In this document: piece by piece, positions 10,401-40,184 of the stretch
Layout of the letters: each line of letters begins with the position of its first letter
Numbering within the stretch: the stretch's first letter is position 1
Origin: Symmachiella dynata
GTDB taxonomy: Bacteria; Planctomycetota; Planctomycetia; Planctomycetales; Planctomycetaceae
Length of the DNA: 64,000 nucleotides
Assembly: GCF_007747995.1 (NCBI RefSeq)
Contig: NZ_CP036276.1
Span: 4,145,001 to 4,209,000, forward strand
Reading direction: 5' to 3'
The notes under the pieces: generated by a model
Database searches by the model: none
What the model saw: the letters and a program-made list of their open reading frames with translations, nothing else
What the model was told of the DNA's origin: nothing
Position numbers and translations under genes: made by a program

Positions 10401-11094
10401 TAAACTGAGCAAAATGCAAGACACCTTTTTCGGCCGGTGGACCGGCTGGAACGTAGACAGTCTCACCAGCGTATTTACCAGCCAATTTGTGCTCGTCGTG
10501 CTGATCACGTATCTCTTGATGGCGGCATTGTTCGAATCGTGGTTGTATCCCCTGGTGATTATTCTCACCGTGCCGTTGGGTGCTGTGGGAGGCATCTTGG
10601 GGCTCAATTTGCTCAACGTCTATCTGGTTGCCACCGGTCAGATCACACAACAATTGGACGTGCTGACCATGCTTGGTTTCGTAATTTTGATCGGTACCGT
10701 CGTGAATAATCCGATTCTGATCGTGCACCAATCGTTGAATCATATGCGTGAAGATGGCATGCTCCCCCGCGATGCGATTTTGGAAAGTATTCGCACGCGG
10801 ATCCGGCCGATCTTTATGACGACGCTCACCACCGTGTTGGGCTTGCTGCCGTTGGTGCTGTTTCCCGGAGCGGGGAGCGAACTTTATCGCGGATTGGGAA
10901 GCGTTGTCTTGGGCGGCTTGCTGGTCTCGACCGTCTTTACGTTGGTTTTGGTTCCCACGCTGTTCAGCCTCATGCTCGATGCCAGAACACGGTTTGTGCG
11001 GTTGTTTGTTGGGGAACGAATTCCAGAGACAACTTCACCGCCCGAACCGCCACAAACACCCGCCCCGCAACGGGAACTGGTGCACCCAAGTTAA
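7417..11094 (+). CDS. RND-family inner-membrane efflux pump
   Basis: The 1225-residue protein is an AcrB/MexB-like proton-driven RND transporter, longer than the usual 1030-1050. It starts with the cytosolic/TM1 signature FVRNPVKVSVGALLVALFGL and has porter motifs (ETLWPGASPQEVE). TM4 carries the proton-relay pair in AFAVGMLVDNAVVVLENIYR. TM8-TM12 run from about residue 1027 to 1185. Three insertions explain the length: about residues 145-205 in the first periplasmic loop, a hydrophobic stretch at about 413-450 between the usual TM2 and TM3, and a basic cytosolic loop at about 585-640. The ribosome binding site is weak. The adaptor gene directly upstream is its obvious partner. Drug, lipid or solvent export is possible; metal export (CzcA-type) seems less likely. 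Confidence 0.9.
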   Translation: MQLIESFVRNPVKVSVGALLVALFGLVALTRMPMQLTPEVQTPTITIETLWPGASPQEVEQEIVLEQEEQLKSVEGITKMTSESADSKGTITLEFQVGIDMGESLLKVNSRLQQVREYPEDADEPVISTANSSDRPIAWFILSSRAPSNEQYDAFEAKYPELVELIAPARRANNVGLGMLRLRLLSKEHPELKELLPPDDLDVTKMRRFAEDEIEARFERVSGVSQSNVIGGLEDELQVVVDPERLAARQLTLTDVRNVLQAQNSDTSAGDFWEGKRRWVVRALGQFRDPKQVEDQPLAVVNGAPVFVRDVAEVQLGYKKPDGLVRRFGESSIAINCLRETGANVLDVMDGLRAAVAEVDEDILKPRGLQLVQVYDETDYINSSINLVQQNIFIGGALTMIVLMLFLHLGIRTLLAVPLIVASAWAAAYISPIYFVVCVAVIVASGFWFARGALVVALAIPTSLIASFLVMGILGRSLNVISLAGLAFAVGMLVDNAVVVLENIYRRHDLGEGPFEAAVRGTQEVLGAVAASTITTVAVFLPVVFVQEEAGQLFRDIALAISAAVALSLVVSMTVIPTAASRLFHSDDEDATPRKPSVLHRLFHRSAGKNGTQRNQSAPETTPAPSTRLGKFAQIIVAPLTIFGNLFVSAIVGFNRWIQRGVLRRLAVVTALFGLAVGVSWALWPKIEYLPTGNRNLVFGIVLPPPGYNLDQLTKLGQTVETELRPYWDVDVDSPEAQALDYPVISDFFFVARGRQVFMGIRAYDGQRVGELVPLVQQVGSKIPGAFAIAKQSSLFEQGLSAGRTIDIEITGPDLKKLVALGGQILGQVSQIMPAAQARPVPSLDLSTPELHIDPKLVQAAEMEVSSRDLGFAANSLIDGAYAGDYYLDGKKIDLSIVGREHYADTTHEIEALPVATPSGQLVPLSSLAHVTMSSGPEQVNHRERVRAITIEVSPPQGTALEDAMIQIKERIVGPIMQSGQLDGGYQINLAGTADKLSKMQDTFFGRWTGWNVDSLTSVFTSQFVLVVLITYLLMAALFESWLYPLVIILTVPLGAVGGILGLNLLNVYLVATGQITQQLDVLTMLGFVILIGTVVNNPILIVHQSLNHMREDGMLPRDAILESIRTRIRPIFMTTLTTVLGLLPLVLFPGAGSELYRGLGSVVLGGLLVSTVFTLVLVPTLFSLMLDARTRFVRLFVGERIPETTSPPEPPQTPAPQRELVHPS

Positions 11095-19005: not shown

Positions 19006-19265
19006 CGTTTTCTTCCCCTTGCTGAGTCTGCATGAAACAGACATAGACGTGAAATAGAGACAGCCTTCGTTTCGTTATTCTGCCAATTTCCGCTTGGGCT
19101 TCAATCGCATAATCACGTATTTCCCAACGATCCCAGAATTAATCTGGCCGGCCCCAGGACCAATTCGGGCGTCAGAAACCTGCTAAACCATAGGAGTTTC
19201 AGCCTATTTCAGCACAATTCCGCCACCTTTCTCTAGACCCACGTAACGACCGATCGTCATAATTG

Positions 19266-24580: not shown

Positions 24581-27500
24581 ATGTTAAATTGTCCGCACTG
24601 CCGAACCACGTTAAAAACGTCGGACTTGGAGTTAGACGCCTGTCCGCATTGCGGCGCCGTATTAGTACCATCCAATAGCGAGTCTTCGCTGGGGACCGAT
24701 CGAACTATAGCCGATAACCCCGACGAAGCTGCCGATGCGACGACCGCCGAAACTCCCACAGTCGCCGACGTCGATGCGGCCAAGTCTGCGGAAACCGACG
24801 AGACTTTCGTGACGAATGTCCTGGACGACGACCAGACATCTGCGAAAACAATTGCGAATACCGAATCATCCGATTCACCGCGTGATACCGAAAGTGATAA
24901 AACGATCGTTGTCGATTCCGGCACTTTCGAAGCGCCCTCTGATGGCAACCAAACCATCGCCGATTCCGGTCACATCGCCGCCACGGAACAAACGTTTGTC
25001 TCCGACGAATTCGATGCAGATCGCACCATCGCCAATGATCCGGATCAGGGTCCAGGTTCCGATCAAGCCGCTGCGATCGATCGCACTTTTGTGACTGAAG
25101 ATGTCGACATCACTGCCAACCTGGATCGTTCGATGGCCGACGATTGGTCGATCGCGATCAAGAACGACGATGCTCCCACTACGTCGATCCGGGCCAAGGA
25201 ACGATTCGAACCTTCTTCCAATTCCTCGTTGGTCATCAAACCCCGCGCCGTGCAGTCCACAACCATCCCCACCGAGACAGACGAAGCGGAATACGAAATT
25301 CTCGGCATTCTGGGAAAAGGCGGCATGGGGGTCGTCTATGAAGCACGGCAAACGTCGATCGATCGGTCTGTCGCCGTCAAAATGCTGGGAGAAAAAACAA
25401 AGTCCGGTGCGCAAAACCAGCAAAAGTTTCTCGCCGAAGCCGTCGTCACTGGCGAACTGGACCATCCCAACGTTGTACCCATCTACGACGTGGGCGTGAA
25501 TGATCGTGGCTCCCTGTTCTATTCGATGAAGAAAGTCCAAGGAACTCCTTGGAGCAAGGTCATCAAGGACAACTCGCAGGCCGAGAATCTCGACATCCTG
25601 CTGCGTGTTGCTGATGCGGTCGCTTTTGCGCATTCCCGCGGAATCGTACACCGCGACCTCAAGCCCGATAACGTCATGCTGGGAGAATTTGGCGAAGTTT
25701 TGGTGATGGACTGGGGTCTGGCGCAACCTACAGAAACCTTCCGCAAAAAAAACACGGTGGCCAATATCAGATCCCTGGGCGGTACTCCGTCCTATATGGC
25801 TCCGGAGATGGTGCTCGGTCCGGTGGAGTCCATTGGACCAGCCAGCGATACCTATCTATTGGGCGCGATTCTGTATGAAATTCTGACCGGCAAACCACCT
25901 CACACTGCCTCGAACGTCTCGCAGGCATTGGTCTATGCGGGCAAAAACATCGTCAAGCCGCCCGAGGAAACAAACGAACTCACTGAAATTGCCATGCGGG
26001 CGATGGCGACCAATCCGGAAGATCGTTATCCCAGCGTGCGGGATTTCCAAAATGACATTCGCGATTACCAATCACATATCGAATCGGTCGCCCTCTCCGG
26101 TGTGGCTGAAGAGTATCTAAGAAAATCTCGGGAAACAGATGAGTATGAAGGTTTCTCGCGCGCCTTGTTCGCCTTCGAGGAAGCATCGTCGCTGTGGGAA
26201 GGAAACACCTCCGCCAAACGGGGCGCTGCCGCAGCCCGGTTGGAATATGCGCAGACGGCTTTGGAGAAAGCCGACTTCGATTTGTCGGAGTCGCTGCTCG
26301 ACGCCGATAATCCCGACCATACTGAACTCCTGCAACAAGTCATCACAAAAAAACAAGAGCGTGCCGCTCATAAACGACGATTACGCAGAGCCAAACTACT
26401 GGTCCGCGGACTGGTCGCAATCGTTTTGGCCGTGGTCAGCATCGGCCTGCTGCTAGTCATGAAAGCCGAAAAAACCGCCCGCCGCGAACGCGACGTCGCG
26501 GAACAACAACGGCAACTCGCGGAATCGGAAACACTCCGCGCCAATGAAGCAGCGGAAAAGGAATCCTTGGCAAGAGTCGTGGCTGAGAAAGCGACCATTT
26601 TAGAAAAAGAGGCAACGGCCAAAGCGAAGAAAGCCCTCGCTGCCGAAGAGGCTGCCAGGAAGGCTGCGGTCCTAGCCTGGAAAGCGGAAGAAGAAGCCAA
26701 ACAAAAGGAAACTGAGGCCAAAGAAAAGGAAACAAAAGCCCGCAAATTGGCCGAAGAGGAACGGCTACGTGCCGACGAAGCGCGTGTCGCCGCCATCGCA
26801 GCCAAAGAAGCGGAGGAATACGAAGCCTACATTGCCCGCATCGGTTTGGCGGCCGCTAAGATCGATGAGAATGCTTTTGATTCAGCGCGTGTATTGCTCG
26901 AAGATTGCGACCCCAAGTTTCGCCAATGGGAATGGGGCCGGTTGATGTATCTGTGCAGCCAGTCCGAGAAGAGTTTTGATGTGCGGGAACCGGCGAGTTG
27001 TTTAGCACTGGCGCCGGATAATCAAACATTTGTTACCGGCGGCCCCAGCGGTACCGCCCGGATATGGAACGCGCAAGATGGAAAGCTTCTGCACGAATGC
27101 CGGCACGTGGGCGATGTGATCCACGCGGTCGCGTTTTCTCCCGATGGACGACTGCTGGCCACCGGCGGTGATGATACGAACAGTCTCATCAAGATCTGGG
27201 ATGCAAAGACCGGACAACCGATCGAACGGCAATTCGGCCCCCCCGCTTCCGAAGACGCCTTTGAAACCGGCCATACGCAAACTGTGACCAGCGTCCAGTT
27301 TTCACATGACGGCCGCCGGTTGCTCACCGCATCGCTGGATGGCACAGCACGCTTGTGGGACGTCGAGTCCGGGAAACAGATACAACGTCTTTTCGGTCAC
27401 AATTGGTGGGTCTGGTCGGCAACCTTTCGTCGCGAACAGGATGCCCAAGGCCAAGCAGTTGATGAAAAACGAATTGTCACGACCGGGCAGGATGGTACAG

Positions 27501-30175
27501 CCATCGTCTGGTCGGACGAAACCGGTCAATGGACCGATGACACTCAGATCCGACAAGGCATTCCGTTTCGAGGTCACAAAGGCCCCGTGTTTTGCGCCCG
27601 CTTCACTCCCGATGGCAAACACGTAGTCTCGGGAGGTTATGACCGCCGCATTTTGATCTGGGAACCCGAAGCGATTGTCGAATTCGATTTCCGCAATCTG
27701 GCCGAAGGATTAGCGCCCACTGAAACCACATTTCAAGAATTGACCGGCCACACGGACACCGTGCGGTCGATTCGCTTCTCACAAGACGGATCGTTGATCG
27801 TCTCCAGCGGTCGCGATAATACCGTCCGCGTGTGGGACATTGGCTCCGAGAAATTGATCCGGACATTTCGCGGGCACGGCAGTGCGGTCGCGGCGGCCGA
27901 TTTTTCCGCTGATGGACGCTGGATCCTCTCTGCCGGAGGCGATGGGCAAGCCAAACGTTGGAGTCTGGACGGCGACGACGAAATCCAAACGCTGCAAGGT
28001 CGCCGGCTTGCTGGGCATACTAACGCCGTGTTGGGCGCCAGTTTTTCACCCGACGGCCAACAGGTGGTAACCGCCAGTCAGGACCGCTATGCCAAATCAT
28101 GGTCGGCCGAATCCGGCGACGTCACACGCGCGTTCTTCGAAGGACATCAGTTTCTTTCCTCCTCGGTCGTATTCTTGCCCGACGGACGGCGACTGATCAC
28201 CAGCGCCATGGATAATACGGCGCGTGTGTGGGATTTGGCTTCGGGAACGGAGGAATTCTCGCTGTTGGGGACGGGGCGCAAAGCGGCTGTGGCCGCCTCG
28301 CCTGATGGAGATTGGATTGTGACCGGCAGCGATCAAGCGACCGTAAAGCTATGGGACGCCGCCAACGGAAAACTGGTGCGAGAATTCACCGGTCATGCAC
28401 ATGAAGTCACCGCCGTTGCCATGAGCACGGCCAAGGGAGGATTAGTACTCTCTGGAGATGAAGCTGGCCGCTGCTGGTTATGGGATGCCAGTACTGGAAA
28501 GCAAATTCGGAGACTGACCGGAAAACTAGGAGGACATTCCGGACGCATCGTCGCGGCCGCGTTCACCATCGACGGACGCCGCGCATTAACGGCCAGCAAC
28601 GACCGTACCGTCGCCCAATGGGATGTGGAGACTGGTGAGGAGTTGGTTGACCGCGTTTTAAAACATCCCGCAGCCGTCACGGCAATGGCCCTCGCGCCGG
28701 AAGGTGGGTTTGCCTTAACCGGTTGTCTCGACGGTACGGTCCGATATTGGGATATTCAAAGTGGAAAGCTGTTGCACTCGTTCGTAGATGTGGGTGGGAG
28801 TGGCGCTGTTTCTGATAACTTGCGGTCGCTGATGGAAGAACGTGCCTGGTCTGTGGCTGATCTAAGCCGGCAAAGTCACGTTCGTGAGGAAGAGATCGAC
28901 AAACTATTTTCCGGCAAGGCGGTAGTTGAAGCAGCCACGATTGATCAGTTGGCCAAAGCGTTTGATGTTGCAACGACAAAACTACATGAATCGGTCCCGG
29001 TTTCGGTGAGCCTTTCCCCGGCTGGGATGGCAGCGGCAACCTATGCGGCCGACGGGAAAGTCCGCGTGTGGGAAGTAGCCTCGGGACGTGAAGTCCTTAA
29101 TCAAGAGTATCCATTTTTGATTTGGTCGGCGGCGTTTGACCCGCAGGCGCAAGGCTCACGGCTGGCCGTTGTCGGTGGAAATCAGACGCATTTGCTCGAA
29201 GCGGCTACCGGACAAGTCGCGATGGCGTTCGGCCCGCACGGAGCGGTCGCCTCCGCGAACTTCTCGCCCGATGGCAATCGCCTAGTGACGGGCAGTTGGG
29301 ATAGTTCGGCACGTATCTGGGATGCGGTCAACGGACGTGTGCTGGCCAAATTGGAAGGGGCACATGCCGGCGCCATCAATAGTTGTGTTTTCTCGCCCGA
29401 TGCCGAAGGCCGATTTGTCCTCACCTCCAGCGACGACGGAACTGCTAAACTTTGGGAGATTGTCACCCAACGGCACAAAGTCTCTCCAGACGCCGCTGAA
29501 GTCGATGTCCGTATAGGCCGCGTGGTACGCACCTATGCCGGACACACCGCTCGCGTGGGATTTGCAACATTCTCTCCCGACGGACGCTGGGTCCTGACCG
29601 CTTCGGACGACAAAACAGCTGCCCTGTATGAAACATCGGCACCCGCAACCTCCGGCGCAGACGAACAGCAAATCCAACCCGCCTGCGTATTACGGGGGCA
29701 TGAATGGGAAGTCCTCTGCATCGCCGCTTCGGCCGACGGGACACGGGTCATCACCGGCAGCGCCGACAATACAGCCCGTGTCTGGGACCTCGATATCCAA
29801 GAGGACGGCAGTATAAAGGCCGCTCCCAGCTTGCTATTGGACGGACATACTTCAAGCGTCACCTGCGTCGCATTTTCGCCGCCGCAGGACAAAAACAACA
29901 ACGGCCAGTGGGATCCCGGTGAAACCAACGCCGTCCGTGCCATCACTTCCAGTCGGGACAACAGCGTCAAGCTGTGGGACACCACAGTCAATTCCAGCCG
30001 TGACCAGGACGACGGGACCGGAGGAATGTTGAATGCGACCGAGATCCTGACCTTGACCGAACATGATCGTACGGTGACATCAGTAGCGTTTTCCAACGAC
30101 GGCCGCCGCATTCTCTCAGCCAGCCGCGACGGTCGGGCGATTGTTTGGAAATCCGTCGACTGGTCAGCACCGTAA
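24581..30175 (+). CDS. Zinc-ribbon Ser/Thr kinase with WD40 array and inserted XRE-like helix-turn-helix
   Basis: The 1864-residue protein starts with a zinc ribbon (C4, C7, C21, C24). An acidic linker (about 40-200) repeats short Thr motifs such as RTIAD, QTIAD and ETFVT. The Hanks-type kinase domain (about 237-500) has LGKGGMGVVYE, the VAVK lysine, HRDLKPDNV and MDWGLAQ, where DWG replaces DFG as in many planctomycetal kinases. Then come a helical region, one membrane helix (RGLVAIVLAVVSIGLLLVM, about 608-627), a long Glu/Ala/Lys coiled coil (about 630-770) and a C-terminal array in which I count about 21 WD40 blades, enough for three seven-bladed propellers. Between blades 13 and 14 lies an XRE-type helix-turn-helix (about 1413-1470). 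The kinase is cytosolic and the propellers should be periplasmic, which makes the HTH puzzling. The SecA-like gene starts 28 bases downstream. Confidence 0.9.
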   Translation: MLNCPHCRTTLKTSDLELDACPHCGAVLVPSNSESSLGTDRTIADNPDEAADATTAETPTVADVDAAKSAETDETFVTNVLDDDQTSAKTIANTESSDSPRDTESDKTIVVDSGTFEAPSDGNQTIADSGHIAATEQTFVSDEFDADRTIANDPDQGPGSDQAAAIDRTFVTEDVDITANLDRSMADDWSIAIKNDDAPTTSIRAKERFEPSSNSSLVIKPRAVQSTTIPTETDEAEYEILGILGKGGMGVVYEARQTSIDRSVAVKMLGEKTKSGAQNQQKFLAEAVVTGELDHPNVVPIYDVGVNDRGSLFYSMKKVQGTPWSKVIKDNSQAENLDILLRVADAVAFAHSRGIVHRDLKPDNVMLGEFGEVLVMDWGLAQPTETFRKKNTVANIRSLGGTPSYMAPEMVLGPVESIGPASDTYLLGAILYEILTGKPPHTASNVSQALVYAGKNIVKPPEETNELTEIAMRAMATNPEDRYPSVRDFQNDIRDYQSHIESVALSGVAEEYLRKSRETDEYEGFSRALFAFEEASSLWEGNTSAKRGAAAARLEYAQTALEKADFDLSESLLDADNPDHTELLQQVITKKQERAAHKRRLRRAKLLVRGLVAIVLAVVSIGLLLVMKAEKTARRERDVAEQQRQLAESETLRANEAAEKESLARVVAEKATILEKEATAKAKKALAAEEAARKAAVLAWKAEEEAKQKETEAKEKETKARKLAEEERLRADEARVAAIAAKEAEEYEAYIARIGLAAAKIDENAFDSARVLLEDCDPKFRQWEWGRLMYLCSQSEKSFDVREPASCLALAPDNQTFVTGGPSGTARIWNAQDGKLLHECRHVGDVIHAVAFSPDGRLLATGGDDTNSLIKIWDAKTGQPIERQFGPPASEDAFETGHTQTVTSVQFSHDGRRLLTASLDGTARLWDVESGKQIQRLFGHNWWVWSATFRREQDAQGQAVDEKRIVTTGQDGTAIVWSDETGQWTDDTQIRQGIPFRGHKGPVFCARFTPDGKHVVSGGYDRRILIWEPEAIVEFDFRNLAEGLAPTETTFQELTGHTDTVRSIRFSQDGSLIVSSGRDNTVRVWDIGSEKLIRTFRGHGSAVAAADFSADGRWILSAGGDGQAKRWSLDGDDEIQTLQGRRLAGHTNAVLGASFSPDGQQVVTASQDRYAKSWSAESGDVTRAFFEGHQFLSSSVVFLPDGRRLITSAMDNTARVWDLASGTEEFSLLGTGRKAAVAASPDGDWIVTGSDQATVKLWDAANGKLVREFTGHAHEVTAVAMSTAKGGLVLSGDEAGRCWLWDASTGKQIRRLTGKLGGHSGRIVAAAFTIDGRRALTASNDRTVAQWDVETGEELVDRVLKHPAAVTAMALAPEGGFALTGCLDGTVRYWDIQSGKLLHSFVDVGGSGAVSDNLRSLMEERAWSVADLSRQSHVREEEIDKLFSGKAVVEAATIDQLAKAFDVATTKLHESVPVSVSLSPAGMAAATYAADGKVRVWEVASGREVLNQEYPFLIWSAAFDPQAQGSRLAVVGGNQTHLLEAATGQVAMAFGPHGAVASANFSPDGNRLVTGSWDSSARIWDAVNGRVLAKLEGAHAGAINSCVFSPDAEGRFVLTSSDDGTAKLWEIVTQRHKVSPDAAEVDVRIGRVVRTYAGHTARVGFATFSPDGRWVLTASDDKTAALYETSAPATSGADEQQIQPACVLRGHEWEVLCIAASADGTRVITGSADNTARVWDLDIQEDGSIKAAPSLLLDGHTSSVTCVAFSPPQDKNNNGQWDPGETNAVRAITSSRDNSVKLWDTTVNSSRDQDDGTGGMLNATEILTLTEHDRTVTSVAFSNDGRRILSASRDGRAIVWKSVDWSAP

Positions 30176-30202: not shown

Positions 30203-32140
30203 ATGTGGGGCATCTTGTCACAATTCGGAATGGTCTCGGCCCGCGGCGAATTCAACCGCGCTCAAGCCGCGCTGCGCCGTGTGACAATCGCCGAACGAGA
30301 CCTGGGCAGTTTCACCGACGAGCAATTACTCCGGGAAAGCTCCTCGCTACGGTATCGCGCCAAGTGCGGAGACGCCTTAGATGCATTACTGCCCCGCGCC
30401 TTTGCTCTGGTGCGCGAAACCGCCGGTCGGCAATTGGGCATGCGGCATTACGACGTGCAAATTATCGCGGGAACCTTATTAGCACGCGGATGTTTAGCCG
30501 AGATGGCAACCGGCGAAGGCAAGACATTGTCCGCCGCATTACCGTTATACTTGCACGCTTTATCCGGCAACGGCGCGCATTTGGCGACCGCCAACGACTA
30601 CCTAGCGAATCGCGATGCCGAATGGATGCGGCCGATTTTTGCGGCATTGGGGCTTTCCGTCGGCGTGATTCAATCCGACATGCTCCCCGATCAGCGGCGC
30701 GCGGCGTATGCCTGCGATGTCACCTACGGGACAGCTAAGGAGTTCGGCTTTGACTTTTTGCGAGATCGGTTGCTAGGAAGCGAACATGGTCTCCTCAATA
30801 CCGGATTCCACAATCACGGCGAACACCGCGCCGCACAGTTCGTACAACGCGACTTGAACTACGCGCTGGTCGATGAGGCTGACAGCATTTTGATCGACGA
30901 AGCTCGTATCCCCTTGATCATCAGTCAGTTTGAGTCCGCATCATCCGCAAAACTGACCGCAGTCTCAAAATGGGCCGCTGACATCGTCGGCCGTTTAGAA
31001 CAGACGACAGACTTTGTGCTGGATCCGGAAATCTCGACATTTCGCCTCACCCCCGCCGGTCGAGAATTGATCCGCCGATTTCCCAAACCGTCGACCTTGG
31101 CGGGCATCCCAGTCAGCGACCTTTACCACAGCGTCGAACAAGCGATCTTGGTGCACCAGCGATTTCGCCGCGAACAACAATATGTGATTCAAGACGGCGA
31201 AGTCGTGATTGTCGATGAATTCAACGGACGTATCGCCAATGGACGCCGCTGGCGCAACGGTTTGCATCAAGCGATCGAGGCCCGTGAAGGTTTGGCAATT
31301 TCTCCCGTCTCGTCATCCGCAGCACAACTCACCACGCAGGAGTTATTTCTTCGCTACAACTGTTGGGCCGGCATGTCGGGCACGCTTCTACCCGCCGCAA
31401 GGGAAATCAACAGCGTCTATCACCGGCCCACCGTCGCCGTCCCTCTCAACCGTCCCTGCCAGCGGAGCCATTGGCCCGATCAGGTCTTTTTAACGGCCGC
31501 CGAGAAATGGACGGCGATCGTCGAAGAGATACGCACCGTCAGCCAGCAAGGCCGTCCCGTCTTGGTCGGAACGCGGTCGATTGAGAAATCAGCACACCTC
31601 TCCCAATTACTCGACCAAGCGGGCATCTCGCACCAAGTCCTCAACGCGCTGCACGTTCGTAGCGAAGCCGAACGCATTGCCAGTGCCGGGCAGCAGGGAC
31701 AAGTCACCGTCGCCACGAACATGGCCGGTCGCGGCACGGACATTGGTTTGGGACCGGGAGCAGCTGAATTAGGCGGTCTGCACGTGATCGGCACGGAATT
31801 GCACGAATCTCCACGGATCGATCGCCAACTCAGCGGCCGCGCCGCACGCCAAGGAGATCCTGGAAGTGACCGGATGTTTCTTTCACTGGACGATGAAATC
31901 CTCGAAGCAGGTTTTGGAAAGGAACAATCCGCCAAACTGCGAGCAGCTGCCCAGAAGCGCAAAGACACACGCGGCTTAGCCAGTCTCTTTCGATCCGCGC
32001 AGCACCAAGTCGAAAAGCGACACGCAGGTCAGCGGCGGCAATTGATTCAGTCCGCACTGCGCCGACAAGACCAGCTTGAACAATTGGGACTCGATCCGTT
32101 TTTAGAAGTCGAAGAGGACGCGTCCATCGCGCTTTCTTAA
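30203..32140 (+). CDS. SecA-like preprotein translocase ATPase, C-terminally short
   Basis: The 645-residue protein has all SecA ATPase motifs: Walker A EMATGEGKTLSA (101-109), LATANDYLANRDAEWM, DVTYGTAKEFGFDFLRD, Walker B VDEADSILIDEARIPLI, the NBD2 motifs GTRSIEKS and VTVATNMAGRGTDIGLG, and the arginine-finger region RQLSGRAARQGDPG. The preprotein-binding domain is present (VVIVDEFNGRIANGRRW). The protein ends soon after the first part of the long scaffold helix (AQHQVEKRHAGQRRQL), so the helical wing, the two-helix finger region and the zinc-binding tail of the 830-900 residue housekeeping SecA are missing or not recognisable. It is therefore an accessory SecA-type ATPase, not the main one. 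Start at ATG 30203; GGAGA is 16 bases upstream. Neighbours suggest a link with the export genes at 32442-40184. Confidence 0.85.
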   Translation: MWGILSQFGMVSARGEFNRAQAALRRVTIAERDLGSFTDEQLLRESSSLRYRAKCGDALDALLPRAFALVRETAGRQLGMRHYDVQIIAGTLLARGCLAEMATGEGKTLSAALPLYLHALSGNGAHLATANDYLANRDAEWMRPIFAALGLSVGVIQSDMLPDQRRAAYACDVTYGTAKEFGFDFLRDRLLGSEHGLLNTGFHNHGEHRAAQFVQRDLNYALVDEADSILIDEARIPLIISQFESASSAKLTAVSKWAADIVGRLEQTTDFVLDPEISTFRLTPAGRELIRRFPKPSTLAGIPVSDLYHSVEQAILVHQRFRREQQYVIQDGEVVIVDEFNGRIANGRRWRNGLHQAIEAREGLAISPVSSSAAQLTTQELFLRYNCWAGMSGTLLPAAREINSVYHRPTVAVPLNRPCQRSHWPDQVFLTAAEKWTAIVEEIRTVSQQGRPVLVGTRSIEKSAHLSQLLDQAGISHQVLNALHVRSEAERIASAGQQGQVTVATNMAGRGTDIGLGPGAAELGGLHVIGTELHESPRIDRQLSGRAARQGDPGSDRMFLSLDDEILEAGFGKEQSAKLRAAAQKRKDTRGLASLFRSAQHQVEKRHAGQRRQLIQSALRRQDQLEQLGLDPFLEVEEDASIALS

Positions 32141-32441
32141 ACAGGTTACCCGTGTCGACGGGTTGCTACGTCGAACAGAGACCGCGTCCCCGGAAGGGCG
32201 AAGCTCCGTCTGATCCGCATCGGTACACTCAGCATGGTTTGCAAGATCGTAGAGAAAGCAAGCGTCTCGATCAGTTCACATAACCGCCTGGGGTGCCACT
32301 GGCGGCTTGTCCGCCAGTGCGATGGAAGAGCATATTCTCCATGCCAATCGACGACAAACAACATGCGTACTGCAAGCCTCCAGCGCGCCGACAAACGTGA
32401 ACGGAGAAGTCATGTCGAAACGCTGTAGTATTTGCCTACGA
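32141..32441. other. Convergent intergenic region with two hairpins
   Basis: This 301-base gap separates the ends of the convergent SecA-like and TolC-like genes. ACCCGT-gtcg-ACGGGT at 32148-32163 lies eight bases after the SecA-like stop and may end transcription, although no T-run follows. A second hairpin (32297-32319) belongs to a dispersed repeat. No gene seen. Confidence 0.5.
32297..32319. repeat. Dispersed hairpin repeat with CTTGT loop, copy 1
   Basis: CACTGGCGG-CTTGT-CCGCCAGTG is a perfect nine-pair hairpin preceded by GGGTGC. A second copy at 55283-55305 has the same flank and loop but a stem changed at paired positions. Confidence 0.8.
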
Positions 32442-34604
32442 TCAGTTCACATCGAATAAACCAACCGCGTCTTCGCTCTCCCCATCGAACTCATCATCAA
32501 ACCACGCTTCCGCTCCATCGTTATCGTCGGGGGCAGGAGGCACAGCGACGGGTTCTGAGATTTCCGGTTCGCAATCTTCCGGCAAGACCTCGGCGAATCG
32601 GCTCACCTGCCCGTAAGGGCCGCGGCTGACCACCGGATCGGAATAGGTCTTTTGCAGATCCTCGAGATTATGAATCCGTGATTGCAATCGTTCTTCCGCA
32701 TCGCAATAAGCGGCTTGCGGCCAGGGGCCTTCGGATAGATAAATCTGATTATGCTCCAGCAAAGTCCCTTCAGCATAGAACAGATTTTTTAGTCCCAGCG
32801 CATATTCGACGCGGGCTTTGTAGTGGGCGCTATCTGCTTCGGCAAACCGTCGTTGTGCGTCGAGAACGCGGTCAAGATCGGTGATGTTTTCCTTCTCGAA
32901 TTTGTCCTGTAACACTTCAAATTCCCGCTTGGCTGCCAAACGTCGATTGAATGTCGTCTTCACCGAGGCCTGTGACCGCTTCACCTCGCCCACGCTATTA
33001 CTCAAATCGTGGACCACTTCCCGTTCTTGCTCGTGCAAAATTGCTCGGTCGCGGGCCAAGGCCAATTCCGCGTTTTTCACCGCAGCATTCGCACGTCGAT
33101 GGCCCAACGGCACCGCGAATTCCATCCCCAATTCCCATTCTTGGTAGTCGCCGCTCCCGAGATTTCCCCAGGCATTATTAAACTGGCCGTTGACGCCGGC
33201 ATGTTGCCCCATCAGGTCCTTACCGAATCCGCGGAACCGGTAGGTCCCCAAGGCATCTAATCGCGGCAGCAGGAATTTGTTCGTGGCTTCCAACTCCAAC
33301 ATCCGGCGTTTGACTTGCCATCGTTGCCGGCGCAATTCGACGCGGCGTGCTAAGGCTTCGGATTTGATCGTCTCCCAATCGAAAATCACTTCCGCTACAG
33401 GGGGTTCGTCGATCGGGCGCAGTAGCGTCCCATCCGAGAGTGGCAGCCCCATCAACAGCCGCATCCGCCGCTCAGCGACCTGAATTCCTTCCAGTCCGCG
33501 AAACGTACCACCGCGACTGCCGTTGTTGTCCCGCGTCCCTTCGACCAATCTGCCGGAGAGCGCGTCCTGCACCGCCTCTTCAAATCGATAGTATTGTTCT
33601 TGAGCCTGCGCTTCGTTTTCTTCTTCACCACCCACGCGTCCGGCAAGATTGAGCGCCTTAACGCGCCGCCATGTTTCTAAAGCGGCGTCGCGGGCAGCGA
33701 TACGTGAATGCAAATTGCGGTACGAAAAGTAGAGGTCCCAATACGCGTTTTCTACGTTACTGATGAATTTGATCACACTTTCTTCAAAGTCCGCCAGACT
33801 GACATCTTCATCAATACGTGCCAGCATCACGCCGTTAAATCGCGATCCGTAGGGCAATCGCGGTAACGTTGCCGTGCTGCCGGTACCGGGAGGAAATTGC
33901 GGACCGGCGATGCGGTTGAATTCCACACCGGCTCCCAATAGCAACGGTTGGCGGACATTGGCCTCGATCCGCGTATCCCATGCACTGGGAAATCGGTTGC
34001 CCGGAGCGTTGTTCGCGTCGTAACCGGTGATTTGCCGAATGCCTAACTCGGCCCCAGTCACCGCTCGTTTGTCCAATCCATATTGCATAAATGCGGCGTC
34101 TTGTTGCAGCATCTGCGTGCCGAATGCGGTGACCGCGTTATTGACGGCCCGGTCATTCTTCTGATGGAAGCCATTGGCATAAAAATTGGGATCAAAGGCG
34201 CTCAACGCTCCTTCCACACCAAATCGTGGATCAGTCTCGGTGATGGCTGGATCGTAGGTTGTGGCTACGACTTGTGGGGCATCCAAGACTCGTCCGCCCA
34301 GATCCCGCAGTACGCGGGAATTCGAGAGCGCCGTCTTGACGGTTTGTTCCAACGTCAGGTCCGTAAACTCGGCGATGTCAACATCTTCAACGGTCAAGGG
34401 TGCCGGCGTGATGGACGCATCGAGATCCGGCCCCTCATCGACAAGTGGTTCTTCGATTTCAGTCGAGGCGATCTGATAATCACTCAAATCAGGCGAGAAC
34501 GGCACGTAGGAATTCGTGCTGCTACAACCCGTGTACGCCACAGCCATGAAAATCATGGCTGCTAACCAGACCGCTCGTGTTGCAGGTGAACGGGTGTAAT
34601 ACAC
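32442..34604 (-). CDS. TolC-like outer-membrane efflux lipoprotein
   Basis: The frame is open from 34667 (TTG), but GTG 34604 gives a compact lipoprotein signal: YYTRSPATRAVWLAAMIF followed by lipobox VAYTGC. This start is my choice; 720 residues result. Long alpha-helical stretches of the outer-membrane efflux protein family (PF02321) are seen twice: VIKFISNVENAYWDLYFSYR with a following helical part, and NAELALARDRAILHEQEREV through FEVLQDKFEKENITDLDRVL. Between them, beta-strand-like segments GLPLSDGTLLRP and MEFAVPLGHRRANAAVKN fit the barrel. It is much longer than E. coli TolC (471 mature residues), with an acidic C-terminal tail. It should form the outer-membrane duct for a tripartite exporter, most likely with the adaptor genes starting at 34992. 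Confidence 0.85.
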   Translation of the reverse strand: MYYTRSPATRAVWLAAMIFMAVAYTGCSSTNSYVPFSPDLSDYQIASTEIEEPLVDEGPDLDASITPAPLTVEDVDIAEFTDLTLEQTVKTALSNSRVLRDLGGRVLDAPQVVATTYDPAITETDPRFGVEGALSAFDPNFYANGFHQKNDRAVNNAVTAFGTQMLQQDAAFMQYGLDKRAVTGAELGIRQITGYDANNAPGNRFPSAWDTRIEANVRQPLLLGAGVEFNRIAGPQFPPGTGSTATLPRLPYGSRFNGVMLARIDEDVSLADFEESVIKFISNVENAYWDLYFSYRNLHSRIAARDAALETWRRVKALNLAGRVGGEEENEAQAQEQYYRFEEAVQDALSGRLVEGTRDNNGSRGGTFRGLEGIQVAERRMRLLMGLPLSDGTLLRPIDEPPVAEVIFDWETIKSEALARRVELRRQRWQVKRRMLELEATNKFLLPRLDALGTYRFRGFGKDLMGQHAGVNGQFNNAWGNLGSGDYQEWELGMEFAVPLGHRRANAAVKNAELALARDRAILHEQEREVVHDLSNSVGEVKRSQASVKTTFNRRLAAKREFEVLQDKFEKENITDLDRVLDAQRRFAEADSAHYKARVEYALGLKNLFYAEGTLLEHNQIYLSEGPWPQAAYCDAEERLQSRIHNLEDLQKTYSDPVVSRGPYGQVSRFAEVLPEDCEPEISEPVAVPPAPDDNDGAEAWFDDEFDGESEDAVGLFDVN

Positions 34605-34991
34605 GGAGGTTATCTCGACTTTTTGGAAATTGAGATCGACAACTTTGCCCCAGCGGCACCGCACCAACGCTCGACCGCCACGACCTAAGACTAAGCGTTA
34701 GGCGATCATCCGTGAGCGGACCCTAGACATTGATGTGGACGTACCAATACGAAGTATCGGCAATCCACGCGATCGGCATGACCGGTACTATTGATACAAG
34801 CCGGAAATTCCATATTTCCCATTCAATTGCCCCAGTCTGCCATATGAGAGGCACGTGCAGATAGCCTCGCCCAGCGAACAGATCCGCCATCAAGCCGCGC
34901 AGACAGCTGTTCGGTAGCGGTTTAGAATGAATCACCGCCCGTACAAAACATCATATCAATTGCCGCCCCTGTTCTTTTTTCCGAGCCTTCG
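34605..34991. other. Divergent intergenic region
   Basis: These 387 bases lie between the divergent TolC-like and GAF-HlyD genes and should hold promoters for both, so the two transcription units could be coregulated. No convincing gene or operator was seen. Confidence 0.4.
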
Positions 34992-37007
34992 ATGCCTCCT
35001 TCTCCACTCAGTGATCCGCCGGATGCCGCCGCGGCGGCACTGCGCGAAATCCACGAGTTGATCGCCACGATCGCCCATACCGGGGAAGGCGATGCCACGA
35101 CCGAGGTGTTTTACGACACCCTGCTAGAGAACTGTGTCCAAGCGACCGCTGCGATTGGCGGGGCGGTCTGGTATCAAGATGTGGACTCCGGCTTCTTTAA
35201 GACAGTCCGCGAGCTGAATTTCCCCCCGACGCTGTTCAACGACTTTCAATCTGAAGAAGCGCATGCAGGACAGCTGGCCGAGGTTTGCCGCACGGGCGAA
35301 CCGCAAGGTCTCCCCTACTCGACGACAGCACCTGATTCAGGCGATGCCCCGCATTCCCCCGATTATCTCCTGTTGCTGTGTCCGGTTCCCGTGGACATAG
35401 ATTCGAAATGGATCGTTGAACTTGTCCTGCGACGTACAATCTCGCCTTCTGCACAACAAGGACATCTGCGATTTCTCTCCGCCGTCAGCGAGATTGCCGC
35501 CGACTTTCATCGACACGCTGAATTGCGAACACTTCGCGGCAACGAGGAGCGTTGGCAAGAACTCTACCGTCTCTCGATCGATGTCCACCAAGGCCTCTCC
35601 GTCGACGAAACCGCCTACGCCATCACCAACGGTAGCCGACCATTATTGGAGTGCGACCGTGTGAGCGTGCTCCAACGGCGTGGCGGTCGCTGTCGTCTCC
35701 TCAGCGTCTCGGGTGTGGATCAAATCGAAAGCCGCTCACTTTCCGTACGACGGCTAGAGTCACTCGCCGAAGCGGCCATCGCCACCAGAGAACCGCTGTG
35801 GTACACCGAAAACGGCGACCCGTTGCCGCCACAAATTGAACGTCCGCTCGAGGACTACCTCAACGAAGCGCACATGCGGCAACTCGCCGTGATCCCGATG
35901 TTTCAAGCTCGCGAATCGTCCGAGACCAATACGGCCCCCGCGTTTGCAGCGATTGTTGTCGAATGGAAACGAGCACACGACTTAGACGACGTCGCTCGCA
36001 AGCGATCGCTCCGCGTGGCCCACGTCTGCGAATCAGCATTGGCACGGGCACTAATGCTGCGCGGGTTGCCATTCTCCGGTTGGTTACTGCGACGACGGAA
36101 AACGACTCTAGCGACACCACGGCGCTGGTTCAAAAGACTCTTTTTCGCCGCAATATTAATCACCGGATTGACGTTGCTGGGCATGCTCCCCCGGCCCTTT
36201 ACGGTTTCCGGATTGGGTGAACTTCAACCGCGAAATGAGCAGCGTATCTTTGCCGTCTCCGATGGCGAAGTCGAAAAACTGCATGTCCAACATGGAGATG
36301 ATTGCGCTGTCGGTGAATTGTTAGTCACCATGACTAACTCGCAACTCGATTTCGATCTCAAACAGGTCGGCGGCGAATTACAGACCACGCGCACGCGCCT
36401 CACATCCGTCCGCGCCGCCTATTTGGGCATTGACCGTTCGCTGACGCAATCCAACCAGCGGTACGAAGAACTCACGGCCGAAGAACAAGAACTCCAAGAG
36501 AAAATCGATAGCCTCAACAAGCAGTACCAGATCCTGTTGGATCAAAAACAGCGGTTAGAAATCCGCAGCCCGCTCGACGGACGCGTACTGACCTGGGACG
36601 CCGAACAATTACTGCAAGCACGACCGGTCCGTCAGGGCCAAGCACTTTTGACGGTCGCCAACCTCAACGGTCCGTGGCGCGTTGAATTGCACGTTTCTGA
36701 AGAAGACGTGGGCTATCTGATCGCCGCTCAAGATGAACTCGGTGCGGAATTGCCGGTGAGCTTTCTGCTCGAATCGGACCCCAGCGTCACCTATACCGGA
36801 AGACTCGAAACCACCAGTCTCTCGACCAGCTTCGACGAATGGGACGCAGCCGGTATGGCAGTCACCATCGTCATCGACGAAGGTCAACAAATCCCCCTCC
36901 GCCCCGGCGCCCGTGTCCGCGCCAAAATCGCGGGAGGGGAACGCTCACTCGCGTTTGTTTGCCTACACGATTTGTATGCCGCTGTGCAGCGCTGGTTGTT
37001 GTTTTAA
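34992..37007 (+). CDS. GAF-domain/HlyD-type membrane adaptor fusion
   Basis: The 671-residue protein begins with about 375 cytosolic residues that look like two GAF domains (first about 20-165, with VQATAAIGGAVWYQDVDSG; second about 190-350, with ALLECDRVSVLQRRGGRCRL and MRQLAVIPMFQAR). One membrane helix follows (LFFAAILITGLTLLGML, about 384-402). The periplasmic half is an HlyD/EmrA-like adaptor: lipoyl half SDGEVEKLHVQHGDDCAVGE, a short coiled-coil hairpin, and second half RSPLDGRVLTW, ending in a membrane-proximal beta domain. GAF domains commonly bind small ligands or mediate dimers, so this adaptor could sense a cytosolic signal. The ribosome binding site is weak. The next gene starts 13 bases after its stop. 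Confidence 0.82.
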   Translation: MPPSPLSDPPDAAAAALREIHELIATIAHTGEGDATTEVFYDTLLENCVQATAAIGGAVWYQDVDSGFFKTVRELNFPPTLFNDFQSEEAHAGQLAEVCRTGEPQGLPYSTTAPDSGDAPHSPDYLLLLCPVPVDIDSKWIVELVLRRTISPSAQQGHLRFLSAVSEIAADFHRHAELRTLRGNEERWQELYRLSIDVHQGLSVDETAYAITNGSRPLLECDRVSVLQRRGGRCRLLSVSGVDQIESRSLSVRRLESLAEAAIATREPLWYTENGDPLPPQIERPLEDYLNEAHMRQLAVIPMFQARESSETNTAPAFAAIVVEWKRAHDLDDVARKRSLRVAHVCESALARALMLRGLPFSGWLLRRRKTTLATPRRWFKRLFFAAILITGLTLLGMLPRPFTVSGLGELQPRNEQRIFAVSDGEVEKLHVQHGDDCAVGELLVTMTNSQLDFDLKQVGGELQTTRTRLTSVRAAYLGIDRSLTQSNQRYEELTAEEQELQEKIDSLNKQYQILLDQKQRLEIRSPLDGRVLTWDAEQLLQARPVRQGQALLTVANLNGPWRVELHVSEEDVGYLIAAQDELGAELPVSFLLESDPSVTYTGRLETTSLSTSFDEWDAAGMAVTIVIDEGQQIPLRPGARVRAKIAGGERSLAFVCLHDLYAAVQRWLLF

Positions 37008-37020
37008 GGTGCCAAGTGAC

Positions 37021-37950
37021 ATGAGAATCATGGACCTGAATAAAACGATGCGAATTTTCATAATCCTGACAGCCGGTGTATTGCTGACGGCGCAGTCCTT
37101 ACCGGCGGATGAACCACAGACCATTGTGATTGATTCCGTGCTGGTCACCGTGCTAGAAAAAGCTGACGTACCGGCGCGAGAAGCGGGGTTGCTGGCAAAG
37201 CTCAATATTCGTGAAGGGGATCTGGTTCGTGCAGGCCAGATTCTGGGTGGGCTGGATGATAAGGTTCCTCAACTCGAGCGGGACCGCGTGAACGCTGAAC
37301 TCGATTTGGCCAAGCAGCGTTCCACAAACGATGTGCGGATTCGTTTTTCTGAAAAGGCCGAAGCCGTGACGCGCGCAGAATTAAAACGGGCTCAGGAGTC
37401 GGTCGACAAATTCAGCAAAGCGATTTCGCAGACCGAAATGGACCGCCTACGGCTTTCCACCGAGAAATCGACACTGGAAGTGGAGCAAGCGCGGCGCGAG
37501 CAACGGGAGGCGGAATTGGAAACGCGGGTGAAAGAACAAGAATTGCGCCTCGCCGATGAAGCCGTGCACCGACGTACAATCAGCGCCCCAATTTCCGGCA
37601 TTGTCGTGCAAGTCAGCAAAAGCCCCGGCGAGTGGGTCGAACCAGGAGAAACTGTGCTGCGCATCCTTCGCGTCGATCTACTCCGCGCCGAAGGATTCGC
37701 CGATGCGCGTCTCATGCAACGCCGCCAAGCCGGCCAACCTGTCACTTTGACGATTGATCAACCAGGCGAAAAATCGCAAACGTACTCCGGCAAATTGGTA
37801 TTCGTCAGCCCCGAGGTGAATCGCTTCAACGGACAAGTCCGCGTTTGGGCCGAAATCGAAAACCCCAGCTTGACGTTGCGTCCCGGGTTGACCGCCACAA
37901 TGACCGTGACGTCCAAGCCCCACAAAGACAACGAGCCACCGGGGGAATAA
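37021..37950 (+). CDS. HlyD/RND-type periplasmic adaptor
   Basis: I place the start at ATG 37021 because AAGGTG overlaps the end of the previous gene at 37006-37011. The 309-residue protein has a signal peptide (MRIFIILTAGVLLTAQSLPA) and the adaptor order: VPAREAGLLAKLNIREGDLV, a long alpha-helical hairpin rich in Arg and Glu (about 80-180), RRTISAPISGIVVQVSKSPGEWV, and a C-terminal beta domain ending in LTLRPGLTATMTV. It has no transmembrane segment other than the signal, unlike its neighbour. It lies five bases upstream of the M50 fusion gene, so the three genes form an operon and probably one complex. Confidence 0.88.
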   Translation: MRIMDLNKTMRIFIILTAGVLLTAQSLPADEPQTIVIDSVLVTVLEKADVPAREAGLLAKLNIREGDLVRAGQILGGLDDKVPQLERDRVNAELDLAKQRSTNDVRIRFSEKAEAVTRAELKRAQESVDKFSKAISQTEMDRLRLSTEKSTLEVEQARREQREAELETRVKEQELRLADEAVHRRTISAPISGIVVQVSKSPGEWVEPGETVLRILRVDLLRAEGFADARLMQRRQAGQPVTLTIDQPGEKSQTYSGKLVFVSPEVNRFNGQVRVWAEIENPSLTLRPGLTATMTVTSKPHKDNEPPGE

Positions 37951-37955
37951 ACGTC

Positions 37956-40184
37956 ATGATTTCCCTCACGCCCGTTCAACCACTTCGGCAGGCAACACCC
38001 CGCGCCATGCCATTGCGTCTGCGCGATGACTTGATCATTCAACAAGTGGGCACCGACTCCGCCACACGGTGGGTGGTCAAAGATCCCATCTCCTTGCGTT
38101 ACTTTCATTTTCGCCGCGAAGAGTTTTTTGTCCTGCAACGGTTGGATGGAACACGCTCCTTGGAAGATATTCGGCGGGAGTTTATACGGGAATTCCCAGC
38201 TGAGAATTTGACAACAATGCGGTTGCAGACCTTCATGGCCTATCTGCACGAGAACAGCTTGATCATCACCGATGCCGAAGGCGAAGGGCAGCGGATGCTG
38301 GTTCGACGGCGACGGGCACGAGCGAGCGGCGCGCGGGCCGCCATGACCAACCTGTTGGCGATCCGTTTTCCTGGATTTGATCCAACGCGTTTGTTGGACT
38401 GGCTGTCACCGCGTTGCCGGTGGATGTTTACGCGCACGTTTGTCGCCGCTTGCCTCCTGGTGATCATAGCAGCGGCGCTGCTATTGGCGGTCCAGGCCCG
38501 CACTTTCCTCGTGCGCCTGCCTGATTTTCACGCGTTTTTCACCGTGATAAATCTCGTCTATCTGATGGCGGCGGTGGCCGGTGCGAAAGTCCTGCATGAA
38601 TTGGCCCACGCTTTAACCTGCCGCCATTTTGGAGCGCAGTGCCATGAAATGGGATTCATGCTGTTGGTCTTCACCCCCTGCCTGTACTGCAACGTCACCG
38701 ATTCCTGGATGCTCCGCCATCGCCGCGAACGGATTCTCATTAGCGCCGCGGGCATGTTCGTCGAAGTGGTTTTGGCCGCCCTTTGTGTATTCGGCTGGTG
38801 GTTCAGCCACCCCGGTCTGTTCAACTCCTTGTGCCTGAATCAATTGGTGGTCTGCTCGGTGGCCACGTTGCTATTCAACGGAAATCCGCTGTTGCGTTAC
38901 GACGGTTACTATATTTTGTCCGATCTCGTGAATGTCCCCAATTTGCAGCAGCGCGCAACGGAGGCGCTCCGTGCAGTACTGGCAAAGTTTTTTCTCGGCG
39001 TGAAGTTGCCCCGGACTGAGTTCGGACAGCGGTCCCATACCGGCTGGCTAGCTGCTTACGCCATCGCCTCCATGCTTTACAAGCTGTTCATTCTCGCCGC
39101 GATTTTGTGGTTCTATTACAAATTGCTTGAGCCATACCAACTACAGGTCTTCCCTCAAATCCTCGGCGGATTAACGATTGCAACCGCATTCTTGCTTCCC
39201 TTATGGCGCTCGATGCGATTCTTCGGCGGACTGGCGAGCGGCGGACATGTGCACTGGTTTCGGTTCTTGTTTCGAACAATAGTTGTCGCCGCAATCTTAG
39301 GCGTGATCATTTTCGTTCCACTCCCCAGAACGGTTTCGGCACCGGCGGTTCTCGAATCCCAAGATGCACGGCGAGTGTATGTCACCGTCCCGGGGGAATT
39401 GAAGTCGATAGTTGCCGAAGGAACCGTCGTGCGGCAAGAGGATGTGTTGGCGGAATTGGAAAGCCCCCTATTGCGGCGGGATGTCGCTGAATCGCAAGGC
39501 TTGCTAAATCAAGAGCAACGCCATCTCGACAATTTGCGGAAACGACGCATTCAAGAACCGGATGTCGAATTGCAAATTCCCGCTGTCATCGAACGGATCA
39601 AGGATTTGCAGGACCAATTGCAGCAGCGGCTCACCGATCTGCAGGCACTTTCGATCATCGCCCCACGCAACGGCACGGTCATCGCCGTGCCCAACGACCA
39701 ATCGCAGGCTGCGGAAGGCGAATTGATGGCCTGGTCAGGCAGTCTGCACGATGCCAAGAACCGGGGATGTTTTCTCGAATCGGGAACTCAACTCTGTCTC
39801 ATCGGTGATCCCGATCAAGGTGAAGCGATGTTGCTCATCGATCGTAACGATATTCCGTTGGTGCAGCCTGGCCAAAGCGTGAAGTTGTATTTCGGCGCGC
39901 TTCAGAACCATTTGATGACTGGCAAGATCGTTGAAGTGGCCGAAGCAGACACCGACGTGCTGCCTCCCATGTTGGCCAAACAGGTGCAGATTCCGGTGCG
40001 TGATCAAACCGACAATGGAGCGCGGCCGATGGAGACGGTTTATTTGGCTCGCGTCAAGTTTGAAGACCAGCCGCAACGGATCATTTCCGGCAGTTCGGGC
40101 GCAGCCCGCATTCGCGTCGCCCCACGTTCGCTTGCGCTGCGACTGGCCGATTATGTGACGCGCACGTTTCGCATGGAATTCTAA
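37956..40184 (+). CDS. PqqD-like / M50 site-2 protease / HlyD fusion (YydH-like peptide exporter-protease)
   Basis: The start is ATG 37956, with GGGGGAA nine bases upstream (742 residues). Residues about 20-110 form a PqqD-like winged-helix domain (LRDDLIIQQVG, DPISLRYFHFRREEFFVLQ, LDGTRSLEDIRREF), of the kind that binds leader peptides. Then come several membrane helices with the M50 zinc site HELAHA near residue 213 and the second motif RYDGYYILSDL. The C-terminal third is a HlyD-like adaptor: VYVTVPGELKSIVAEGTVVR, a helical hairpin, and IIAPRNGTVIAVPND. This architecture corresponds to the 'putative peptide zinc metalloprotease' group that includes YydH. It suggests recognition, intramembrane cleavage and transfer of a substrate to the adaptors and TolC-type duct. 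The substrate is not known. Confidence 0.88.
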   Translation: MISLTPVQPLRQATPRAMPLRLRDDLIIQQVGTDSATRWVVKDPISLRYFHFRREEFFVLQRLDGTRSLEDIRREFIREFPAENLTTMRLQTFMAYLHENSLIITDAEGEGQRMLVRRRRARASGARAAMTNLLAIRFPGFDPTRLLDWLSPRCRWMFTRTFVAACLLVIIAAALLLAVQARTFLVRLPDFHAFFTVINLVYLMAAVAGAKVLHELAHALTCRHFGAQCHEMGFMLLVFTPCLYCNVTDSWMLRHRRERILISAAGMFVEVVLAALCVFGWWFSHPGLFNSLCLNQLVVCSVATLLFNGNPLLRYDGYYILSDLVNVPNLQQRATEALRAVLAKFFLGVKLPRTEFGQRSHTGWLAAYAIASMLYKLFILAAILWFYYKLLEPYQLQVFPQILGGLTIATAFLLPLWRSMRFFGGLASGGHVHWFRFLFRTIVVAAILGVIIFVPLPRTVSAPAVLESQDARRVYVTVPGELKSIVAEGTVVRQEDVLAELESPLLRRDVAESQGLLNQEQRHLDNLRKRRIQEPDVELQIPAVIERIKDLQDQLQQRLTDLQALSIIAPRNGTVIAVPNDQSQAAEGELMAWSGSLHDAKNRGCFLESGTQLCLIGDPDQGEAMLLIDRNDIPLVQPGQSVKLYFGALQNHLMTGKIVEVAEADTDVLPPMLAKQVQIPVRDQTDNGARPMETVYLARVKFEDQPQRIISGSSGAARIRVAPRSLALRLADYVTRTFRMEF

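Follow-up and report, generated by a model that had tools for sequence, protein, structure and literature searches.

Genes of the locus

A 64,000-nucleotide stretch of the Symmachiella dynata genome (NZ_CP036276.1, 4,145,001-4,209,000 of the forward strand; called the window here, with positions numbered within it) holds five neighbouring genes whose products resemble parts of a protein export machine. The original prediction had described a short SecA-like ATPase, a TolC-like lipoprotein, an adaptor with GAF domains, a second HlyD-type adaptor and a protease/adaptor fusion, and all five were found by reading of the open reading frames and by Pfam and NCBIfam profile scans, which matched their domains. 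We argue below that the locus probably encodes an ABC-less tripartite machine that exports large proteins bearing an N-terminal leader, LExRxLL[S/D][A/G]. The features on which this reading depends, with expectation values (E) for profile matches, are as follows.

30203-32140, plus strand: SecA-like ATPase without the C-terminal part of SecA (645 residues; SecA_DEAD, P-loop and cross-linking domains)
32442-34667, minus strand: TolC-like outer-membrane factor, probable lipoprotein (OEP, 7.6e-18)
34992-37007, plus strand: GAF-HlyD adaptor (HlyD_3, 6.4e-10; GAF, 4.9e-5)
37021-37950, plus strand: HlyD-type periplasmic adaptor (HlyD_3, 1.3e-20; RND_mfp above the NCBIfam cut-off)
37956-40184, plus strand: PqqD-like/M50 metalloprotease/HlyD fusion (742 residues)
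38595-38609, plus strand: HExxH zinc site (H214-H218) of the M50 domain, invariant in relatives
38901-38903, plus strand: D316 of the M50 domain, invariant in relatives
19263-24551, plus strand: candidate cargo, a PKD-repeat protein in a 1762-residue frame (PKD_4, 1.1e-82; T1SS-143 repeats, 8.3e-19)
19464-19490, plus strand: leader-type motif LEERRLLDS (six-frame pattern scan)
1-243, minus strand: second candidate cargo, N-terminal part, with the motif ENLEDRLVLSA (NF012209, 19.2 bits, above cut-off)

The gene set and its order are directly observed, and the short spacings claimed earlier are exact, with the HlyD start codon (ATG, 37021) 13 bases past the GAF-HlyD stop and that of the fusion (ATG, 37956) five bases past the HlyD stop. 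The GAF-HlyD adaptor is present as described, except that Pfam finds a single GAF domain (residues 204-307) and not several. The TolC-like gene lies on the minus strand and is therefore not co-transcribed with its neighbours; by direct reading its product has a lipobox-like TGC after a hydrophobic stretch, and TolC-like homologues occur near several planctomycete modules. A co-occurrence survey found the same genes side by side in many genomes, beyond what chance would give, which bears out the idea of a single system, and on this comparative evidence the genes of the locus form one conserved system of the export type. Searches with the GAF-HlyD adaptor matched 44/148 planctomycete genomes at E ≤ 0.001, many through the HlyD part alone, and this protein was therefore dropped as a marker. 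The genome to which the window belongs also has a second module, with M50-HlyD, GAF-HlyD and SecA-like genes in a row on the minus strand (G000:C1:7146539-7153906, locus L199).

The zinc-protease residues of the fusion are intact. H214, E215, H218 and D316 are invariant in 34/34 aligned relatives, they are likewise invariant in 26/26 sequences of another alignment, and simple hydropathy gives seven hydrophobic segments, with HExxH and the distal aspartate in the membrane domain. The window fusion itself matches Peptidase_M50 at 2.1e-5 (below cut-off), HlyD_D23 at 3.1e-4 and the daptide_HExxH model (NF041824) at 4.8e-53, the last with 180.6 of the 300 bits required and hence also below cut-off; its match to PqqD is weak (NCBIfam, E = 0.0046, 16.8 of 46 bits) and likewise below cut-off. 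Taken as a family, 17 of the 34 members are matched by Pfam PqqD, and the family profile matches PqqD 3g2b (E = 5.1e-6) and TfuB1 6jx3 (E = 4.5e-4). PqqD-like domains bind leader peptides, and at the level of the family the N-terminal domain of the fusion is, by profile comparison, PqqD-like and of this leader-binding type.

A Pfam scan of 20 window proteins, a subset of the frames of the window, found no ABC gene. Across 144 module loci, ABC-type frames recognised by motif pattern, all of 223-379 residues, lay in the fetched stretch of eight, and RND-size membrane frames lay near four besides the window. These counts agree with the claim that such a partner does not usually adjoin the module, and because they are so low we rejected an ABC or RND protein as its usual partner. 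The window does contain an RND pump with an adaptor of its own:

5806-7242: adaptor of the RND pump
7417-11091: RND pump (ACR_tran, 2.4e-183)

The pump stands beside this adaptor and 26.7 kb from the fusion, and the pair (about 5806-11094) apparently forms a separate efflux system.

Candidate cargo and its co-occurrence with the fusion

The earlier suggestion that the system handles leader-bearing proteins has gained most from our analysis, given that proteins of the NCBIfam LEPR-XLL family (NF012209) track the M50 fusion. Sequence comparison strongly indicates a candidate cargo class of large proteins, often rich in repeats, whose N-termini bear LExRxLL[S/D][A/G], a motif related to this family. 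The stretch first singled out contains the five genes and omits the giant gene at 19263-24551, which probably belongs to the system as well. The start of this 1762-residue frame is uncertain, with TTG 19263, ATG 19266 and ATG 19356 among the options. The second candidate is part of a 1218-residue frame (genome positions 4141590-4145243) cut by the left edge of the window, and nine more frames in the same genome have the motif near the N-terminus, for example ESLEQRLVMSA and EALEDRRLMAA.

The position of the motif is consistent with a leader. In 147 stretches, frames of 400 residues or more contained the pattern 36 times among their first 130 residues and eight times further on (191,620 early vs 807,030 later residues), a rate ratio of 19. 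One early motif, in a 623-residue frame (L121), seems to be spurious and was later excluded; the others fall in 23/86 plasmid and genome-collection module loci and in 12/58 planctomycete module loci, many module loci being cut by contig ends. By simple hydropathy with guessed start codons, a hydrophobic core is absent from 33/35 cargo N-termini, which are basic, and present in six adaptor/TolC controls. Two very long open frames, of 26,117 residues with cadherin-like repeats (G248:C1) and of 19,427 residues with LEPR-XLL (G220:C115), were seen in genomes that both have the M50 fusion.

Co-occurrence was counted in 397 Pseudomonadota and 148 Planctomycetota genomes, with fusion thresholds of our own choosing (E < 1e-80 and E < 1e-40, respectively). 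The fusion is present in 84/397 Pseudomonadota. LEPR-XLL is found at E ≤ 1e-3 in 38 of these 397 genomes, all 38 of which have the fusion, and in 0/313 without it (p = 6.6e-30). At E ≤ 0.02 the count rises to 57, of which 52 have the fusion, the matches in the other five genomes being to frames of 64-311 residues. Within the 52 genomes that have both, a LEPR frame lies no more than 15 kb from the fusion in 31. The frames that hold the 51 matches at E ≤ 1e-3 range from 144 to 19,427 residues. In the Planctomycetota the fusion threshold gives 43 genomes (53 at E = 0.001), and LEPR-XLL above its cut-off is found in 25 genomes, 24 of them with the fusion (p = 6e-15); with the family of the window left out, 17 genomes with the fusion have it vs one without, and at E ≤ 1e-3 the fusion accompanies it in 12/13. 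LEPR-XLL fires widely at E ≤ 1 (82/148 planctomycete genomes and 7/14 control genomes, one of these above cut-off), so only the stricter counts were used. Both the co-occurrence and the adjacency of machine and motif proteins are thus direct observations, and that the motif proteins are cargo of the module appears highly probable from them.

A second profile, A2, was built from 34 motif windows in which the L, E and R columns were selected for, and the LEERRLLDS motif of the window is its first row and so no independent match. At E ≤ 0.02, A2 found 43 of the 148 planctomycete genomes, of which 33 have the fusion and 10 lack it; the split is 27 vs 2 at E ≤ 1e-3 and 24 vs 0 at 5e-4. After removal of the nine genomes that supplied rows, the corresponding figures were 24/34 vs 10/105, 18 vs 2 and 15 vs 0. 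Five fusion-less genomes with LEPR or A2 matches (G087, G002, G016, G110 and G112) were re-checked, and in these the M50 profile matched through the HlyD part alone; the other fusion-less genomes matched by A2 are G040, G050, G068, G091 and G105. In G087 the NF012209 match is found 219 or more residues from the start of its frame.

The genomes are related and some modules are plasmid-borne, and so one might consider that common descent and joint horizontal transfer are enough to have produced the association. We regard this as scarcely credible, since the association holds in two phyla and within planctomycete families: both fusion and LEPR-XLL occur in 1/11 genomes of f15 and neither in the other ten, both in 2/8 of f24 and neither in six, and both in one of the two f55 genomes and neither in the other. 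In f42 (n = 3) one genome has both, one has neither and G087 has LEPR alone, with its internal match. The association also holds among genomes with cadherin-like repeats (164/397 Pseudomonadota), where LEPR-XLL at E ≤ 1e-3 occurs in 27/58 fusion-bearing and 0/106 fusion-less genomes. These 0/106 genomes led us to reject repeat-rich giants as such as the source of the association.

A further possibility is that the module matures and exports small peptides of the ribosomally synthesised and post-translationally modified type, with the giants as functionally unlinked neighbours. Models of daptide and epipeptide proteases, which share the PqqD-like and M50 core, match 34/34 fusion-family members, and 15/34 have weak matches to the NHLP HlyD model. 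Set against this, LEPR-XLL proteins track and adjoin the fusion in two phyla, and a small-peptide system with unlinked giants seems very improbable.

Plasmids provide further instances. The fusion occurs in 81 plasmid records, and in three of the six regions examined a motif-bearing giant stands beside the module: in Escherichia coli (a 4460-codon gene with cadherin/Ig repeats and LESRQLFDGA), in Burkholderia anthina (LEPRVVYDAS) and in Cupriavidus metallidurans CH34 (LEPRLLYDAA). A Methylosinus plasmid has a LamG giant whose N-terminus lies beyond the examined stretch, and the examined stretches of the Azospirillum and Magnetospirillum plasmids contain no motif-bearing giant. In E. coli the fusion is rare (24/5426 genomes), with 21 of its 25 places on plasmids. 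Two E. coli loci (L091 and L298) show a SecA-less module on IncF-type plasmids, together with a cadherin/Ig giant with DUF4347.

The SecA-like ATPase

The SecA-like protein of the window matches SecA_DEAD (4.9e-96), the SecA P-loop (2.8e-58) and the preprotein cross-linking domain (1.4e-26), and the domain profile scan gave no wing/scaffold match. Its best PDB match is the 781-residue SecA2 chain 6t4h, to residues 20-608 of which it aligns, and the missing part is presumably the helical wing and two-helix finger. The motifs GEGKT, a DEAD-type Walker B and TNMAGRGTD can be read directly in its translation. It nonetheless falls under every NCBIfam SecA2 cut-off (TIGR03714, 511/930; TIGR04221, 457/725; TIGR04397, 579/1085; NF012136, 410/1100).

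Both the original prediction and a model published in 2015 would make this ATPase the motor that replaces the ABC exporter, obligatory if the replacement is to hold in every such system. A SecA-like frame does adjoin the fusion in 71/80 genome-collection loci, and GEGKT is retained in 86/94 SecA-like frames. Two of the 80 loci end too soon, and in seven, each with at least 2.5 kb of downstream sequence, no SecA-like frame is present. A motif-bearing frame adjoins the module in all seven, five of these frames being cut by a contig end. In whole-genome searches, six of these genomes (those behind L145, L146, L152, L159, L161, which is Cellvibrio mixtus, and L171; several are metagenome assemblies of unstated completeness) gave a single SecA, which has canonical length, and the seventh (L164) has a SecA-like gene elsewhere. 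The absence of a second SecA extends to the planctomycete genomes G084, G136 and G143, in which the fusion is present and SecA is matched once, in a frame of canonical length. For the annotated plasmid modules of E. coli, Burkholderia, Azospirillum and Magnetospirillum, the gene tables, which are incomplete, list no adjoining SecA gene. As a universal motor the SecA-like ATPase was rejected on account of the module genomes with canonical-length SecA only, and its general role as stand-in for an ABC exporter is not supported by the six of these with an adjoining motif frame. An obligatory motor is accordingly unlikely, and from these genome comparisons the SecA-like ATPase is an optional part of the module. 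Where it is present, we consider it reasonably likely to serve as motor.

In a FastTree phylogeny of 144 fusions, labelled for SecA within the fetched neighbourhood only, one supported branch unites eight SecA-less fusions, three of them planctomycete and five on replicons of E. coli, Burkholderia, Azospirillum, Cupriavidus and Magnetospirillum. Two loci, L126 (counted among the 71) and L249, have SecA-like frames in the usual place (78 and 99 bits) without the four ATPase motif patterns tested, possibly inactive SecA remnants. On the Methylosinus plasmid a SecA-like gene (L094:22042-23958) is annotated as 'prepilin peptidase', probably a naming error.

A Sec-linked route, as first proposed, is unproven, given that the SecA-like protein lacks the C-terminal region of SecA and that 33/35 cargo N-termini have no hydrophobic core. 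One could instead suppose that the module is not an exporter and that it processes and releases LExR proteins which cross the inner membrane by other means. The resemblance of the fusion to maturation proteases and the dispensability of the SecA-like gene would fit such a maturation machine; the three HlyD-type adaptors, the frequent TolC in the module and the cargo N-termini without a classical signal core speak against it, and we think it improbable.

Proposed export route and known systems

In the ABC-less export machine that we favour, the PqqD-like domain of the fusion would bind the LExR leader at the inner membrane, and the M50 domain, with its zinc-protease residues intact, would then remove it. 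The GAF-HlyD, HlyD and M50-HlyD adaptors could form, together with TolC, a duct for the unfolded cargo. The truncated SecA-like ATPase would push the cargo where it is present, and another energy source would do so elsewhere; passage across the inner membrane may be through the M50-HlyD assembly or through SecYEG. We infer leader binding, cleavage, the direction of transport, the motor role and the inner-membrane channel from sequence, and they differ in strength: recognition of the leader by the PqqD-like domain has a fair balance of probability in its favour, and cleavage by M50 slightly less. With motif-bearing frames of up to 19,427 residues, the module might represent a distinct class of Gram-negative secretion, a leader-guided, protease-gated and ABC-independent export of giants in which the PqqD-M50-HlyD protein recognises and cuts the leader, LExRxLL[S/D][A/G], and also provides or gates the way across the inner membrane, the truncated SecA being an extra motor that the system can do without; for this broader proposal we see the chances as evenly balanced.

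Several points weigh against the export reading. The PqqD and M50 matches of the window fusion itself are below cut-off, and the 1762-residue cargo frame of the window is not matched by NF012209 at E ≤ 1 (cut-off 17). Frames of fewer than 500 residues hold six of the 51 Pseudomonadota LEPR matches at E ≤ 1e-3, and A2 also matches fusion-less planctomycetes (10/105 at E ≤ 0.02, two at E ≤ 1e-3). LEPR-XLL was not matched in 46/84 Pseudomonadota and 19/43 Planctomycetota fusion genomes at the thresholds used, and the genome sets are phylogenetically non-independent. Some modules have neither an ABC protein nor a second SecA, which raises the question of energy, and the export reading does not account for how a module without a dedicated ATPase is powered.

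A locus of this kind has been described before. Kamneva, Poudel and Ward (2015, PMC4452313) reported a secondary SecA_DEAD, type I secretion-like locus with SecA_DEAD without wing/scaffold, GAF-HlyD, HlyD, M50-HlyD, sometimes OEP and no ABC gene. In their proposal, the SecA-like ATPase together with the M50 protein compensates for the absent ABC exporter. For Methylobacterium extorquens AM1 the operon is listed there as MexAM1_META1p2402-2399. The window has the features by which they defined it, namely SecA_DEAD without a full SecA_SW and neighbouring GAF-HlyD, HlyD and M50-HlyD. In the available part of that article no cargo or signal is named; a word search of the article text gave no instance of giant, LamG, cadherin, adhesin or PqqD and one of substrate, in a general sentence. 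LEPR-XLL, for its part, is a named N-terminal domain in the literature, for which no export route is given in the available portions of two articles (PMC10868602, PMC9611531). Searches of open-licence literature listed no paper that connects LEPR-XLL with the module in its title or the opening of its abstract; subscription papers and preprints lay outside this scope and priority is unproven. Compared with the 2015 locus as the available text gives it, the additions made here are the candidate cargo class, the PqqD-like start of the fusion with HExxH...D kept, and an optional SecA-like ATPase. The co-occurrence pairs the two lines of work, providing a machine for the LEPR-XLL signal and a cargo for the secondary-SecA locus. 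If correct, this would account for the export of very large proteins by many planctomycetes and proteobacteria in the absence of both an ABC exporter and a signal core of the Sec type, and the motif would become a sequence tag for listing such exported giants.

The module also differs from better-known systems. Like type I secretion (HlyB-HlyD-TolC), whose cargo includes repeat adhesins, it combines HlyD-type adaptors with TolC, whereas it has no ABC exporter, has a PqqD-M50-HlyD chain and places the motif at the N-terminus of the cargo. With accessory SecA2 systems it shares a second SecA-type ATPase, to which the match to 6t4h points, yet the window protein is without the C-terminal part, scores below the SecA2 cut-offs and is tied to HlyD/TolC genes. 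The daptide and epipeptide M50 proteases (NF041824, NF058609) have the same PqqD-like and M50 core with HExxH; unlike them, the fusion has an extra HlyD domain and a proposed giant cargo, besides its bit score in the window well short of that required. NHLP-type exporters combine leader-guided export with proteolysis. The concept is the same here, and there is a weak HlyD match (TIGR03794), but the loci checked show no peptidase-ABC fusion next to the module.

One further gene separates the candidate cargo from the SecA-like gene:

24581-30175, plus strand: protein kinase with WD40 repeats (Pkinase, 1.9e-38; WD40, 6.2e-152)

It is separated from these neighbours by gaps of 29 and 27 bases, all three genes being on the plus strand, and within its WD40 region a stretch that looks, by eye and unscored, like a Cro-type helix-turn-helix was seen.

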